Source of the DNA: Pelagibacterium sp.
Lineage (GTDB): Bacteria; Pseudomonadota; Alphaproteobacteria; Rhizobiales; Devosiaceae
Direction of reading: 5' to 3'
DNA length: 64,000 nucleotides
Assembly: GCA_002723255.1 (NCBI GenBank)
Contig: PBNW01000078.1
Span: 1 to 64,000 of the forward strand
In this document: one piece after another, positions 3,058-62,020 of the stretch
Layout: each line of letters opens with the position of its first letter
Position numbering within the stretch: position 1 is the stretch's first letter
Notes under the pieces: model-generated
Databases searched by the model: none
The model's input: the letters and a program-made list of their open reading frames with translations, nothing else
What the model was told of the DNA's origin: nothing
Translations under genes and position numbers: made by a program

Positions 3058-3151
3058 GGAGCCGTTCGGGATCTGATTGACTCAGATCCTTGGCTCCAAC
3101 CTTTGTTTTGTCGCGTGTCCGAACCGCAAAAACGTCTTGCCGGACATGCGC
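3058..3151 (+). repeat. Palindromic repeat, R-family copy 1
   Basis: Two hairpins in tandem. The first pairs GGATCTGA (3069-3076) with TCAGATCC (3082-3089) around TTGAC and is flanked by GGAGCC/GGCTCC. The second is built around GCGTGTCCG (from 3113) and CGGACATGCGC (from 3141). The same composite recurs at 16472 and 18421. The left edge lies directly against the ribosome-binding site of the fadL-like gene, so the element sits in that gene's 5' UTR on the minus strand. Confidence 0.8.
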
Positions 3152-15656: not shown

Positions 15657-16465
15657 ACATCGAGCGCCTGACGGCAATTCTGCGTGAGGCAGCGGCCAAG
15701 GAAATCATGCCGCGGTTCCGGCGGCTCGATGAAGGCGCGATCCGCACCAAATCGCACGCCCATGACCTGGTGACCGAAGCCGACGAAGCGTCGGAGCGGT
15801 TCATTACCGAGGCGATCAAGGCAGCTTCACCACAGACCGTGGTGATCGGCGAGGAAGCGGTGGCCGCCAACCCCAAGCTGCTCGACACTCATTTCGAGAA
15901 CGAGACGGTTGTCTATGTCGATCCGGTGGACGGCACCTGGAATTTTGCAGCCGGGTTGCCGCTGTTCGCGGTAATGGCGGCGGTGGTGCACAAGGGCGAG
16001 GTGGTCGCCGGGGTGATCTACGATCCGGTGGGGGATGACTGGATGATGACCGAGCGCGGCTGCGGGTGTTTCCAGGTGTTTCCCGACGGACGCATTGTGG
16101 CGCAGAAATTTGCCGCTCCGGTGCCGCTCGACCAGATGGCCGGCACGGCATCGGCATCTTACGTCGCACAGGACAAGCGGGCCGAAGTTCTGGCCAATCT
16201 GGCCAAAATCCACACGCTGGCCGCCTATCGCTGCGCTGGACATGAATACCGGCTGGGGGCGGGCGGCAGCCTCAACTTCATGATGTATAACAAGCTCACG
16301 CCCTGGGATCACGCGGCGGGATCGCTGATGATGGTGGAAGCGGGCGCCCATGTGGCCCATTTCGACGGCTCGGCGTACAAACCCGCCCATATGGAGGGCG
16401 GGCTTCTGGTGGCAGGCAGCAGGGACAGCTGGGACGAACTGCGCCGCGAGGTGTTTACCGTCTAG
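15653..16465 (+). CDS. Inositol monophosphatase family protein
   Basis: Mg-dependent phosphatase of the IMPase/FBPase/CysQ superfamily with 270 residues. Metal motifs are GEEAV (66-70), DPVDGT (90-95) and WDHAAG (218-223). It could act on inositol-1-phosphate, histidinol phosphate or 3'-phosphoadenosine phosphate; none can be preferred from sequence. It is translationally coupled to ttcA by a 4-base overlap. A repeat begins within about 10 bases of its stop. Confidence 0.9.
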
Positions 16466-16471
16466 AGTCAT

Positions 16472-16590
16472 TCAGGATTTGATTGACTCAAATTCTCGGC
16501 TCCAAACCCTTGTTTTGTCGCGTGTCCGAACTGGAAAACAGTTTCCATCCCCGATCGCGTCGCGGACAGGGTTTTGCTGGACACGCTCCA
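16472..16590 (+). repeat. Palindromic repeat, R-family copy 3 (left border of cassette)
   Basis: Starts with ATTTGA-TTGAC-TCAAAT (16477-16493), then the GTTTTGTCGCGTGTCCGAAC core, and ends with GGTTTTGCTGGACACGCTCC, which pairs with the core. It is in the same orientation as copy 4 at 18421 and differs from it at about 10 of 112 aligned bases by hand count. Confidence 0.85.
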
Positions 16591-16630
16591 GGCTTTGGTC
16601 CAACGCAGCAAAGCTGCCGCTGTCTGCCGA

Positions 16631-17365
16631 TCATTCGACCCGAATCGTAATCGGGTCACTGTAGAGATCGAAATCAGTCCGCCCAGGTGCCGTGGCCGTG
16701 AACATCAATGCCCGGGCAGGGGTCGGCCCGCCGCAACTGCGGCTGTTGCGCAGTCCTATGCCGCCGTCGGACCATGAGCCTATATCGATGTCGGGCAGGT
16801 CTTTTCGGGTAACCTCCCAGGCTGGAGGCATCTCGCCGCACGCGCCGCGCCGACCATGAATGATCTCGGAGTCCCCGACGCCCAGCGTCACGAGCCTGTG
16901 GTACTCGATTTCGGGATATCCCGTGCTTTGGGGGGCGGGCGAGAGAAGCAGGTAGGCGAGGGTTCCGGCCAGGCCAATCAGGCATATGACAGTTCCAGCC
17001 AACATCAACTGCAACTGCCTGATCTGAGTTCGGCCATTATCGATCTTACTGTCGTTTGCTCCGGTCTCAGCGGGCTTTCGGGCTTCCTGGTAAAGCGCAT
17101 TCCAGCCCGCGCTCAAGTCCTCCCGGGACTCGATCTGCAGGACCTTGGTGAGGAGCAGGAAGTTGCGGCGCCGGGGAACGTGAGTACCGTTTCGCCAATT
17201 GTGCAGGTTCCTTAGCGTCGCCTCGAACGACTCCTGGGATTTGCTGCCCGAGGCCAGGCAAAGCTCTTCGGCCAGAGCCATGTTGTCGAGATGGCCCTGG
17301 CGGATGCATATGGCGTCGAGCAGCTCGTGCCAGTGCCGATATCCTGCAATGTTATCGTTTTCCAT
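16631..17365 (-). CDS. Unknown HTH-like, single-TM, periplasmic-domain protein
   Basis: Not a recognised family. The 244-residue product has an N-terminal cytoplasmic helical region (1-95) whose segment LRNLHNWRNGTHVPRRRNF (51-69) reads like an XRE-type helix-turn-helix, a linker (96-118), one TM helix (119-141) and a C-terminal periplasmic part. That part holds Cys176 and Cys211, a possible disulfide, and ends in a beta-rich ARALMFTATAPGRTDFDLY. The architecture suggests a membrane-anchored one-component regulator or an anti-sigma-like sensor. It is divergent from two small secreted-protein genes. The start at 17365 has GGAGAAGG upstream; the longer frame lacks support. Confidence 0.7.
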   Translation of the reverse strand: MENDNIAGYRHWHELLDAICIRQGHLDNMALAEELCLASGSKSQESFEATLRNLHNWRNGTHVPRRRNFLLLTKVLQIESREDLSAGWNALYQEARKPAETGANDSKIDNGRTQIRQLQLMLAGTVICLIGLAGTLAYLLLSPAPQSTGYPEIEYHRLVTLGVGDSEIIHGRRGACGEMPPAWEVTRKDLPDIDIGSWSDGGIGLRNSRSCGGPTPARALMFTATAPGRTDFDLYSDPITIRVE

Positions 17366-17575
17366 TGCCTTCTCCCGTCTCAGCCATTCGACAATAAGCA
17401 TATGAGTTATCACAGTAAATCCCCGAAAATGCCCCGCAGTCTCGGGATCTTCCGGGAATGTCCAAGACATCGGCATGGCAAGATGATTAAGGCTGCTTTC
17501 GCGCTCTCGTCGAACCGGGATAGGCCGTGATTGGCGCAGGGGCGATCACTAGCTCTCATTAAAACGGAGGAATAA

Positions 17576-17932
17576 TTGAAGTACACACTCCTGCTATTGT
17601 TTGCAGCGGCCTGCTTTGTGCCGCTTGGTGTCTCTCCGACATTTGCCCAGCAGGCAAACGACTGTGTTGACGTGCGCAATACAAGCAATACGGCGTTTTT
17701 CAAGAGCCAGATGTATAACGGATGCAACAAAACAATCGTTGTTCATTACTGCATGGCTAACGCCTGCCGATCGAGCTCGGGGTATTATACCTCATCGGAA
17801 ACGCTTTCGCCTGGAGAGAGCGCTCCGGTCGATACCGAAGGGAACGGTGTCTACTGGGCCGCTTGTGTTTATGAAGCGCCTGATTGGGACACACCGATCT
17901 CGGACTCATCGGGACGATTCCGGTGCGGCTAG
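17576..17932 (+). CDS. Small secreted cysteine-rich protein (unknown)
   Basis: 118 residues with a clear signal peptide (cleavage probably after TFAQ, about residue 23). The mature part of about 95 residues has six Cys, consistent with three disulfides, and is rich in Ser/Thr/Asn. No family is recognised. The start is TTG at 17576, supported by GGAGG 6 bases upstream; no ATG fits. Base composition is low for this genome: 87 G+C in 180 bases at 17581-17760, against 39 in 60 at 15001-15060 in ttcA. It is the first gene of a likely two-gene operon. Confidence 0.72.
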   Translation: MKYTLLLLFAAACFVPLGVSPTFAQQANDCVDVRNTSNTAFFKSQMYNGCNKTIVVHYCMANACRSSSGYYTSSETLSPGESAPVDTEGNGVYWAACVYEAPDWDTPISDSSGRFRCG

Positions 17933-17994
17933 CGCCATTCTTTGGGACTGCCGAGGTCGGTTCACCGCCACCTAACTCCAGGAAAGGAAAGGCA

Positions 17995-18312
17995 ATGACA
18001 GCGATCCGAACCATCGCCCTGGCCGCGACAGTGAGTCTTGTGCCGACATTTGTTTTGGCCCAATCGTGTCCCACGGCTGTAAACGGGGTGAGCATGGCGC
18101 AGACAATCGGTGAAGCCGGTGGCGCGGAAGCGCTCTTTGATGCGGCAAGCGCCCAGGTTCTTGAACTCGACAAATTTCTTGCCGAACTCGAACCGGCCCG
18201 AGGGCAGGGTATCCGAGAAGCCGAGATCGAAGCGCTCAGGAGCGAGGCGCTTGAACTGCGGGCGGCAAACGAGGCCCTCGCTGAAGCCGCCCGGTGTTAT
18301 ATGGGGCAATAG
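17995..18312 (+). CDS. Small exported helical protein (unknown)
   Basis: 105 residues with a signal peptide ending near FVLAQ (about 23). The mature part has one Cys near each end and a long Ala/Glu/Leu-rich helix, possibly coiled coil (LDKFLAELEP...EIEALRSEALELRAANEAL). It begins 62 bases after the cysteine-rich gene with a strong AGGAAAGGAAAGG ribosome-binding site, so it probably shares its transcript. No family is recognised. The exported pair may act in the periplasm with the receptor-like protein encoded divergently, but this is inference. Confidence 0.7.
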   Translation: MTAIRTIALAATVSLVPTFVLAQSCPTAVNGVSMAQTIGEAGGAEALFDAASAQVLELDKFLAELEPARGQGIREAEIEALRSEALELRAANEALAEAARCYMGQ

Positions 18313-18372
18313 CGCCACCAAAGGTGGCACGCGTGCATGGCCGGTTGGGCCAGCCGTTTTCAGGGTGAAAGG

Positions 18373-18410
18373 GAAGGGCCGTATGCTCAGGCGAGCACGC
18401 GGCCCTTTCC
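18373..18410 (+). terminator. Probable terminator after secreted-protein pair
   Basis: GAAGGGCCG...TGCTC pairs with GAGCA...CGGCCCTTTC (18373-18408), giving a long, slightly bulged stem with a short T-rich tail. A small GCCACC/GGTGGC hairpin also occurs at 18314-18328. Confidence 0.6.
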
Positions 18411-18420
18411 ATTTACGCTA

Positions 18421-18541
18421 GAGCCGAGGATTGATTGACTCAAATCCTTGGCTCCAAACCCTTGTTTTGTCGCGTGTCCGAACCGCAAAGCCATTTTCAT
18501 CCCCGATCGCGTCGAGGACATGGTTTTGCTGGACACGCTCC
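18421..18541 (+). repeat. Palindromic repeat, R-family copy 4 (right border of cassette)
   Basis: Begins GAGCCGAGGATT, which pairs with AATCCTTGGCTC around TTGATTGACTCA. The GTCGCGTGTCCGAACCGCAAA core follows, then GGTTTTGCTGGACACGCTC. It is a direct repeat of copy 3. Confidence 0.85.
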
Positions 18542-18754
18542 AGGACAATCGACATTGAGCTGATGGCGGCCTGCAAATGGCAGTTTGCTGCGTTTCCGGT
18601 GCTTACGTACCCGAACGTACGCTGCTCATAGCCCCGCGAGCTTAAGCTCGCCGGGCGTTTTTCCCTACATAAGGTCCACCGGACCTTCTGTAGCCGGTCA
18701 TCACTCTCGAAACCCGCCGTTTTCGACTCACCCTGAGCTGAATGTCGATTGGTC
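18542..18754 (+). repeat. S-family element 1: MITE-like, bounded by 16-bp inverted ends
   Basis: CAATCGACATTGAGCT (18546-18561) and AGCTGAATGTCGATTG (18736-18751) are inverted repeats with one mismatch. Inside are TGATGGCGGCCTGCAAA, TTCCGGTGCTTACGTAC, a perfect 16-bp palindrome around CTTAAG (GCGAGCTT/AAGCTCGC, near 18637-18652), a hairpin with AGGTCC/GGACCT arms, and CGCCGTTTTCGACTCACCCT. No coding capacity. It abuts the stop codon of the minus-strand MFS gene at 18755. Confidence 0.75.
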
Positions 18755-20014
18755 CTAGTGTTCGCCGCCGACCGGGGGGAGTTCGTCCTTGTATTCCTCG
18801 CCGACACCGAACAGCTTGCCATTTTCGGCAATCAGGATGAAGACGAGCGCGACGCAGCCGAGCACGAAATATCCCGCAGCGATGGGCGTTATGGTGCCGT
18901 TGTAGAACTGACCGATCACGGTTCCGATCAGGGCGCCGCCCACTGTCTGGATCAGGCCGAATACGGCCGAAGCGGTGCCTGCAACCCTGCCGAGCGGTTC
19001 CATGGCCAGTGAATTTACATTGGCCATCGTCCAGCCGAACATGAACATGATGACGGCAAGGAAGGCCAGGAACAGCCAGAGCGGCATGAACCCGGTGAGC
19101 GAGACCATAAGCCAGATGCCGCTCATGATGGTGAAGACCAGCATGGCGCCATGGCTCAGCCGGCGCATGCCGATTTTCCGGACCATGCGGGAGTTGGTGT
19201 AGGACGAGATCGACATCAGGCCGGCGATTGCGGCAAAAGCGACCGGGAAATAGGCGCCCAGATCGTAGATATCGACATAGATCTGCTGGGCCGTGCTGAT
19301 GAAGCCGAAGAGGGCGCCGAACACGAACATGGCCGAAAGCCCGTAGCTGAAGGCCATCTTGTTGGTGAAGACGAGCCGAAAGCCTTCAATGATGATCGCC
19401 GGGCGCAGTTCGCGGCGGTTCTCGGGCCGCAATGTTTCGGGCAGGCGAATGAATGCCCAGACCGTGATGACAAATCCCAGGGCGGCCATGAAAAAGAAAA
19501 TGTATTCCCACGGTCCGGTCAGCAAAAGCACCTGGCCGATTGCGGGCGCTATCACCGGAATGATCATGAATACCATAAAGACCAGCGACATGACTTCGGC
19601 CATCGCCCTGCCGCCAAACCTGTCGCGCACCAGCGAGGTGGCGATCACGCGGGTGGAGGCGGCGCCAAGGCCCTGAACGAAGCGCAGAACCAGAAGCGTC
19701 GCGAAGGTCGGCGAGAACGCAGCCGCAAAGGCGGCGATAACGTAGATCGTCAGGCCAACCATGAGCGGAGCGCGGCGTCCGAAACGGTCCGACAGTGGGC
19801 CGAAGGCAATCTGCGCCGCGCCGAACCCGAGCATATAGGCGGTCAGCACGTAATGGCGGTCGTTTTCATTCATCACGCCCAGCGCCTCGCCCATATAGGG
19901 CAGCGCAGGCAGCATGACGTCGATAGCCATGGCATTGAGCGCCATTAGCCCTGCAACAAGGGCAATGAATTCTGGCCGGGAAACGTCCCGGGTCACTGTC
20001 GTCGTGGTCGTCAT
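18755..20014 (-). CDS. Bcr/CflA-type MFS drug exporter
   Basis: Twelve-TM proton antiporter of 419 residues. The N-terminal half has ALNAMAIDVMLPALPYMGEALG and FGPLSDRFGRRAP (motif A). RFVQGLGAASTRVIATSLVRDRFGG is diagnostic for the Bcr/CflA family (bicyclomycin, chloramphenicol and related export). The ATG at 20014 is preferred over a TTG 7 codons upstream. It is followed downstream by the S element and not by a classic terminator. Confidence 0.9.
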   Translation of the reverse strand: MTTTTTVTRDVSRPEFIALVAGLMALNAMAIDVMLPALPYMGEALGVMNENDRHYVLTAYMLGFGAAQIAFGPLSDRFGRRAPLMVGLTIYVIAAFAAAFSPTFATLLVLRFVQGLGAASTRVIATSLVRDRFGGRAMAEVMSLVFMVFMIIPVIAPAIGQVLLLTGPWEYIFFFMAALGFVITVWAFIRLPETLRPENRRELRPAIIIEGFRLVFTNKMAFSYGLSAMFVFGALFGFISTAQQIYVDIYDLGAYFPVAFAAIAGLMSISSYTNSRMVRKIGMRRLSHGAMLVFTIMSGIWLMVSLTGFMPLWLFLAFLAVIMFMFGWTMANVNSLAMEPLGRVAGTASAVFGLIQTVGGALIGTVIGQFYNGTITPIAAGYFVLGCVALVFILIAENGKLFGVGEEYKDELPPVGGEH

Positions 20015-61860: not shown

Positions 61861-62020
61861 CACCGTTTCCGGTCAAACGTGGACCCACGAACCCCGGACC
61901 CGGTGAAACCCCGGGTGGCTCTTCCGGCCGCCGATCCGCCGGACAACTAAATCAAGTTTCCAGCTCTCCTGGACCGGAGTATTTCGCTCCGCTGGTTTGG
62001 TTCTCAAAACATTCGGAAAA
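61861..62020 (+). promoter_or_regulatory. Possible structured 5' leader of SulP gene
   Basis: A 160-base region without a gene contains ACCCGG/CCGGGT around a TGAAACC loop (about 61898-61916), CCGGC...GCCGG (about 61924-61942) and CTCC...GGAG/CTCC segments before the start. Sulfate-transporter leaders in alphaproteobacteria can carry conserved RNAs; I cannot confirm which, if any, this is. Confidence 0.35.

Follow-up and report, generated by a model that had tools for sequence, protein, structure and literature searches.

A divergent three-gene segment between suhB and bcr in a Pelagibacterium genome and its predicted membrane-anchored, XRE-like regulator

The window analysed here, a 64,000-nucleotide stretch of contig PBNW01000078.1 from a draft genome of Pelagibacterium sp. 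(G000; 3.02 Mb in 80 contigs, 84% completeness), carries between suhB and bcr a divergent trio of genes, g1 on one side and g2-g3 on the other, enclosed by two same-strand copies of a repeat that we call R. We put at about 0.52 the probability that this segment was gained and that g1 is a transmembrane one-component regulator, provided with exchangeable exported cargo, that controls g2 and g3. In the model proposed here, this lineage would have acquired a segment of ~2.1 kb (16466–18544) at the suhB-bcr gap. In the cytoplasm, the XRE-type head of g1 would bind the 210-bp promoter region that separates the divergent genes, while its periplasmic, disulfide-type immunoglobulin (Ig)-like domain would sense an envelope condition, a ligand or a partner, perhaps the exported products of its own locus, and this sensing would switch g2-g3 on or off. 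Of this, what is directly observed is the order of the genes, their lack at the site in relatives and the scattered occurrence of g1; the domains and the membrane topology are predictions, and DNA binding, sensing and the switching of g2-g3 are inferred.

The case for a gain comes from the same site in relatives. Among the suhB loci of 60 relatives, the best 19 were compared. In every one ttcA lies upstream of suhB, with a suhB-like paralog separating the two genes in G058, and bcr was found to follow suhB convergently in 18; in G026 bcr is visible in a longer stretch, and the G058 locus stops at a contig end. By tblastn, all 19 loci lack the three genes at the site (E ≤ 1e-4), as do the extended stretches of G006, G035 and G026 (E ≤ 1e-5). 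The first-pass annotation of this DNA had proposed to compare the suhB-bcr interval of related genomes for presence or absence of the trio; it is missing from all 18 relatives in which both flanks can be seen, and for this reason the simplest account, and a likely one, is a gain specific to the lineage of G000, its direction resting on parsimony since only one genome carries the trio. Where the window reads suhB, R1, trio, R2, a palindromic element P and bcr, the sister genomes G009 and G011 read suhB, a P-related palindromic element and bcr. Other genes occupy the gap in four of the 18 relatives (G007, with an ORF of 233 aa, G006, G035 and G026), and by eye they can be named as VIT-like; MarR- and rhodanese-like; methyltransferase-like; and ClpP-, SRPBCC- and ArsR-like. 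The gap (16466–18754 in the window; loci L017, L064, L065 and L066) resembles an insertion-tolerant site, and because different extra genes are found in 4 of 18 relatives we read it as one: this convergent gap tolerates insertions.

The product of g1 (16631–17365, minus strand; 244 aa) is predicted to be a membrane-anchored regulator on the strength of its model, fold matches, conservation and hydropathy. Its start codon is placed at 17365 rather than 17476, because the g1 genes of relatives align from 17365, and GGAGAAGG precedes the ATG. Three parts can be predicted: an XRE-like helix-turn-helix (HTH) at about residues 9–96, a membrane helix at about 122–140, and a periplasmic Ig-like beta domain at about 154–244. 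An AlphaFold model built from five sequences places helices within residues 12–96, a long helix at 112–139 and a beta domain at 158–243, with a mean predicted local distance difference test score (pLDDT) of 75.6 and a predicted template modelling score (pTM) of 0.42; pLDDT reaches 75–88 in residues 11–100 and 82–95 in residues 151–244, and falls under 50 for much of the length of the long helix. There is a single strong hydrophobic segment (residues 122–140, Kyte-Doolittle mean 2.11), which is found in all eight full-length g1 proteins (2.00–2.89), and in all eight the 15 residues before it are richer in lysine and arginine than those after it. The N-terminal domain matches the folds of DdrO (Z 8.3, root-mean-square deviation (rmsd) 3.0, 74 residues aligned), HigA (Z 7.9, rmsd 4.8, 82 aligned) and the P22 c2 repressor (Z 7.8, rmsd 2.0, 66 aligned), and most of the best-ranked matches have the lambda-repressor-like fold, with the proviso from the structure aligner that Z values around 8 may reflect a common arrangement. 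Neither a plain Foldseek search with the g1 model nor a fold search of BFVD gave a match at E ≤ 0.001.

For the C-terminal domain the fold matches are weak and Ig-like (phage SU10 tail, Z 5.8; SbsC, Z 5.5; chagasin, Z 5.2, rmsd 4.1, 81 aligned), and that none is better says little because this domain was barely tested in the fold search. A 16-member alignment of the domain has two invariant cysteines, C34 and C69, which correspond to C176 and C211 in g1. Compared with the sequences of the PDB, the domain gives nothing better than E 0.95, and its members match three Pfam models, one member each, the best of them a zinc-finger-associated model at E 0.0016 that we take as chance. At E ≤ 1 nothing in Pfam matches g1, and for the three genes together Pfam, NCBIfam, PHROGs and PADLOC return matches only at E 0.03 or worse (PADLOC, 0.032 and worse), so that the earlier statement that no known family fits them holds for these four collections. 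The build first suggested for g1, that of a membrane-anchored sensor, also survives, as a predicted lambda-repressor-like (XRE) DNA-binding domain followed by a single membrane helix and then an Ig-like domain that would be exported.

Relatives of g1 are rare and patchy, and some lie on plasmid or conjugative-type DNA. They occur in two of the 60 relatives, one of these having the C-terminal domain only, and a hidden Markov model (HMM) of g1 matches 14 of 397 genomes of the order, its own included: five with a full-length gene, two with the N-terminal domain only, six with the C-terminal domain only and one with a weak match interrupted by two stops. A scan of named genomes gave five g1 loci, with full-length genes in Aquibium, Rhizobium rhizophilum and Pelagibacterium xiamenense and, in a Rhodobacter metagenome-assembled genome (MAG; locus L036), a stand-alone C-terminal domain that by eye is exported. 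Two plasmid records carry relatives, a full-length g1 on a Rhizobium plasmid and a C-domain protein on a Pseudosulfitobacter plasmid; none was found in viral contigs or phages. The g1 of G140 has as neighbours an ArdC-like anti-restriction gene (by Pfam) and, named by eye, a TraG/VirD4-like gene and a resolvase. A Rhodobacteraceae MAG has a piece of the C-terminal domain at L035:3974-4222, with no intact gene seen, on a stretch that also has a gene that by eye is TraG/VirD4-like. The two genes with the N-terminal domain only (L061:4820-5347 and L062:4499-4981) have no strong hydrophobic segment (Kyte-Doolittle values of 1.05 and 1.35) and adjoin a gene for what appears by eye to be an Rrf2-like regulator.

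The neighbours of g1 bear on what it might control. An automatic signal-peptide rule was run on the surroundings of g1 in eight full-length loci, with the two closest picked genes to the left and to the right (30 genes in total): 10 of the 30 were called exported, as against 7 of 67 other ORFs (Fisher P 0.0095), and six of the eight loci (L032, L033, L041, L034, L058 and L060) have at least one such neighbour. The exported gene is divergent from g1 in the window (by eye), in L032, in L058 (as the second gene out), in L060 and in L059, where the neighbour has a twin-arginine translocation (Tat) signal that is weak and, at E 0.006, does not reach the curated cut-off. Two kinds of cargo recur. 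DUF995-like proteins are encoded in L041 (E 0.00018), L033 (0.00079) and L060 (0.0019), of which L041 alone reaches the curated cut-off, and a protein of L059 is 60% identical over 73 residues to the one of L060; our literature search met the term DUF995 in one paper, where it occurs once. A PEBP-family protein is encoded in L032 (E 2.3e-10), and L034 has a weak relative of it (pairwise E 4e-6) without a PEBP match of its own. That g1 relatives tend to adjoin genes for exported proteins is thus supported but not proven: two calls are doubtful, two loci are near-identical, the gene picker chose antisense ORFs over g2 and g3 in the window itself, and the rule missed L059.

Several observations weigh against the regulatory reading. 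If the two doubtful calls, in L032 and L033, whose starts lie inside larger ORFs, are dropped, the neighbour comparison becomes 8 of 30 versus 7 of 67 (P 0.066); L033 and L041 are near-identical Rhizobium loci, which weakens the test further; and chance alone, at the control rate, would give about a third of loci at least one exported call in a set of four neighbours. The exported gene beside g1 in P. xiamenense and Rhizobium is in convergent, not divergent, orientation, so the layout there does not imply control. The divergent intergenic region of the window (17366–17575, 210 bp, 51.9% G+C), where both promoters and any operator would be expected to lie, was searched for a sigma-70-like site and an operator-like inverted repeat, and neither was found. 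RodZ acts through protein contacts, and g1 could do likewise rather than through DNA. Finally, the composition of g1 is normal. Set against 70 ORFs picked by script in the window (mean G+C 61.1%, sd 2.7), whole-gene G+C is 53.2% for g2, 60.4% for g1 and 60.7% for g3, alongside 60.7% for ttcA and 63.0% for suhB, and G+C at third codon positions is low in g2 (0.60) and g3 (0.61) and unremarkable in g1 (0.73; background mean 0.74, sd 0.06). The difference in G+C between the first secreted gene and ttcA that had been counted by hand was therefore right in direction but too large, and it does not extend to the cassette as a whole, the low G+C being mainly that of g2.

A different account of the gain, which we regard as unlikely, is that the trio is an R-bounded cassette: R-flanked DNA would have recombined with a resident R between suhB and bcr, and the trio could be excised again if R1 recombined with R2. 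The first-pass annotation had proposed just such gain or loss between repeats, and its description of the locus was accurate, as a real three-gene divergent set lies between two R elements in the same orientation (16479–16592 and 18431–18544; 91% identity over 114 nt, 1952 nt from start to start). The two copies agree letter for letter over stretches of about 34 and about 23 nt, and R copies do cluster: among the 40 listed copies, five neighbouring pairs lie within 2.1 kb, against 1.08 expected, and four remain without the trio pair. The close sister G008 also keeps the cassette account alive, at low weight, since it has suhB, then a single palindromic element exactly where R1 begins, then bcr. 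The element aligns with R1 at a score of 25.5 (500 shuffles: mean -6.6, sd 4.5, maximum 10.5); this is close to the state with one R element remaining that the first-pass annotation had proposed to look for, but the element is a diverged relative of R and not the same R.

The genome-wide picture of R argues the other way. R is a dispersed intergenic palindromic repeat of the repetitive extragenic palindromic (REP)-like type, present in many copies between genes: 40 scored copies in G000, among 99 first-look candidates listed, with matches in eight of 11 congeners (few and weak in G004, G006 and G010) and none anywhere in the genome of G007. Twelve copies could be placed in context by eye, six of them between convergent genes, three between genes of the same direction and three unclear. 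Since a divergent trio set between suhB and bcr makes exactly two convergent gaps, flanking copies of R are not very surprising. Another two R copies on one strand, 1246 bp from each other on contig C80, enclose an ordinary gene that has an 80–90% identical match in five of the six congeners searched (in G010 just 46%). Among the copies compared, R2 is closer to those on contigs C27 and C48 (95% identity) than to R1 (91%), so that R1 and R2 are not sister copies; and no R match was found in the loci of the four relatives that hold other genes in the gap, G007 among them. The counts, the C80 control gene and the R1/R2 comparison led us to set aside R as a cassette boundary, and with it the earlier claim of recombination between repeats as the leading idea. 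Most likely the R copies are common intergenic repeats that frequently occupy tail-to-tail gaps, and not the vehicle of the trio; no transposase or integrase Pfam match was found in g1, g2 or g3 either. As the comparison of sites illustrates, same-orientation repeats around accessory genes are not by themselves evidence of cassette boundaries.

R1 (16466–16592, plus strand) begins directly after the suhB stop codon, and the strongly palindromic R2 (18420–18544, plus strand) abuts the palindromic element P (18545–18754, inverted repeat I1), which extends to the bcr stop codon. In RNA folding R2 is very stable (z -6.4, none of 200 shuffles as stable) and R1 weakly so (z -1.4, 18 of 200). Just ahead of R2, a GGGCCG...CGGCCC hairpin followed by TTT (18374–18408, plus strand) is a possible g2-g3 terminator; it was seen by eye and the scan did not report it. 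No RNA family matches 16400–18800 at E ≤ 1; elsewhere in the window (61893–61948, plus strand) there is a match to the Rfam sul1 RNA (RF03058; 77.5 bits, gathering score 36.2). A partial R copy of 58 nt, 94.8% identical to part of R2, lies at 3074–3130, and four R copies in both orientations are found within about 5 kb of contig C5 (L075, G000:C5:18500-28000), surrounding what by eye are a glyoxalase-like gene and ORFs that resemble transposases. The Br-REP1 element of Bradyrhizobium, described as a REP element in the overlapping 3'-UTRs of convergent genes (PMC5082802), is similar to R in being palindromic, intergenic, present in many copies and often between convergent genes; R is the longer, at about 114 nt. 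The papers found on Pelagibacterium with palindromic repeats only mention the words.

If g1 is a membrane-anchored regulator, its nearest counterparts by plan are proteins such as ToxR and CadC. The head of ToxR and CadC is a winged helix (Trans_reg_C model), and no such head is detected in g1 by Pfam at E ≤ 1: the head of g1 is instead predicted to be XRE/lambda-repressor-like, and its Ig-like sensor domain has no Pfam model. Transmembrane transcription regulators (TTRs) are a known and widespread class, whose DNA-binding domains were identified by Pfam models in a survey (PMC10269533), so that g1, which matches no Pfam model, would be expected to escape it. ToxR, TcpP and CadC are such TTRs (PMC11856585), and we regard them as functional analogues of g1. 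What g1 would share with TTRs is a predicted DNA-binding head, one membrane helix and a periplasmic sensor domain, and in the window g1 is also divergent from its possible targets. Our literature search found no paper on an XRE-type membrane regulator or on a link between chagasin and an HTH.

RodZ too consists of an HTH head, one membrane helix and a periplasmic beta domain. It might accordingly be supposed that g1 is a RodZ-like scaffold whose head contacts proteins, with exported proteins that act in the envelope free of transcriptional control by g1, and the order of parts in g1 does match that of RodZ. We nevertheless find this improbable: no RodZ-type HTH or C-terminal domain model is matched by g1 at E ≤ 1 in Pfam; g1 is an accessory and patchily distributed gene, with some copies on plasmid or conjugative-type DNA, and not a conserved one; and the relatives that have only the N-terminal domain and no strong hydrophobic segment adjoin a gene for an apparent Rrf2-like regulator (by eye). 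More doubtful still is a module for envelope defence or competition, in which the exported proteins would be toxins, inhibitors or immunity factors and g1 a protease-inhibitor-like membrane protein, since the weak chagasin match of the C-terminal domain and the g3 relatives in congener G010 that adjoin a protein with a sub-threshold Trypsin_2 match, amid similar neighbours, are to be set against fold matches that are weak and score no better than those to unrelated Ig-like domains, PADLOC matches at E 0.032 and worse only, and no sequence match to any inhibitor family. With the chagasin/ICP cysteine-protease inhibitors, which are of Ig-like fold, the C-terminal domain may share a weak beta-sandwich similarity; it differs in having two conserved cysteines and no sequence match (none of the 16 members has a chagasin/I42 inhibitor Pfam match at E ≤ 1, and no such PDB sequence is matched), and what we take to be the inhibitory loop motifs of chagasin are not evident in it.

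To return to g1 as a regulator of exported proteins, its two presumed targets in the window are small. g2 (17576–17932, plus strand; 118 aa) starts with a TTG preceded by GGAGG and has a signal peptide that by eye is cut after TFA, leaving a mature part with six cysteines, as the first reading of the sequence had also counted. g3 (17995–18312, plus strand; 105 aa) starts with an ATG preceded by AAGGAAAGG, has a signal peptide that by eye is cut after VLA, looks helical by eye and has conserved cysteines C25 and C101. g2 is found in none of the 60 relatives, no relative of it having been recognised with confidence, and g3 in one; neither was found in viral contigs or plasmids, and the single-sequence AlphaFold model of g2 is unusable (pLDDT 44.7). 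One candidate relative of g2, L010:902-1351 in G010, was suggested by its position and its Cys/PGE pattern and was rejected (BLASTP E 0.18, 11/29 identities); an HMM built from the pair matched the window alone among 385 genomes of the class.

Nor does the trio travel as a set. When g2 and g3 were compared by tblastn with 19 loci that have g1, its domains or g3, g3 was found only in G010, a genome without g1 that has two g3 relatives (E 3.8e-16 and 7.4e-9), divergent from a LuxR-type regulator with a GerE domain. In the Rhodobacter MAG, the stand-alone C-terminal domain is immediately preceded by a gene for a homolog of this regulator (32% identity, E 9e-55). The surrounding region of G010 (L057, G010:C21:14000-28199) has many small exported-looking proteins, LuxR-type regulators and trypsin-like proteins besides the two g3 relatives. 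The other full-length g1 loci compared are without g3 or a convincing g2 nearby, and the g3 relatives of G010 are without g1; by the test set in the first-pass annotation, the idea that the three genes form a unit does not stand, and the trio is not a conserved evolutionary unit. Regulators and exported proteins thus occur in different sets.

The sole g2 match in the 19 loci (E 0.004) lies inside the sensor domain of the P. xiamenense g1. The second half of g2 (window 17743–17902) is faintly similar to the first half of that domain (L034:4448-4591; 17/53 identical, pairwise E 2e-4), and the profile probability for g2 against the sensor domain is 4%. We do not claim homology on the basis of these three values, and the resemblance of g2 to the g1 sensor domain is an unproven hint.

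It is tempting to speculate, and we offer it as tentative, that g1 is the first of a family of Hyphomicrobiales regulators not described before, membrane-tethered and of XRE type, whose Ig-like domain also exists in a free secreted form and which travel with varying exported cargo, be it PEBP-like, DUF995-like, six-Cys or helical proteins, the switch itself staying constant. This free Ig-like form, or cargo that resembles the sensor, could then be a ligand or decoy for the tethered g1, an idea for which the faint similarity between g2 and the sensor is the sole hint. If the regulator reading is right, it would add to the transmembrane one-component regulators a family with a periplasmic sensor domain for which there is as yet no model, encoded divergently from its putative target.

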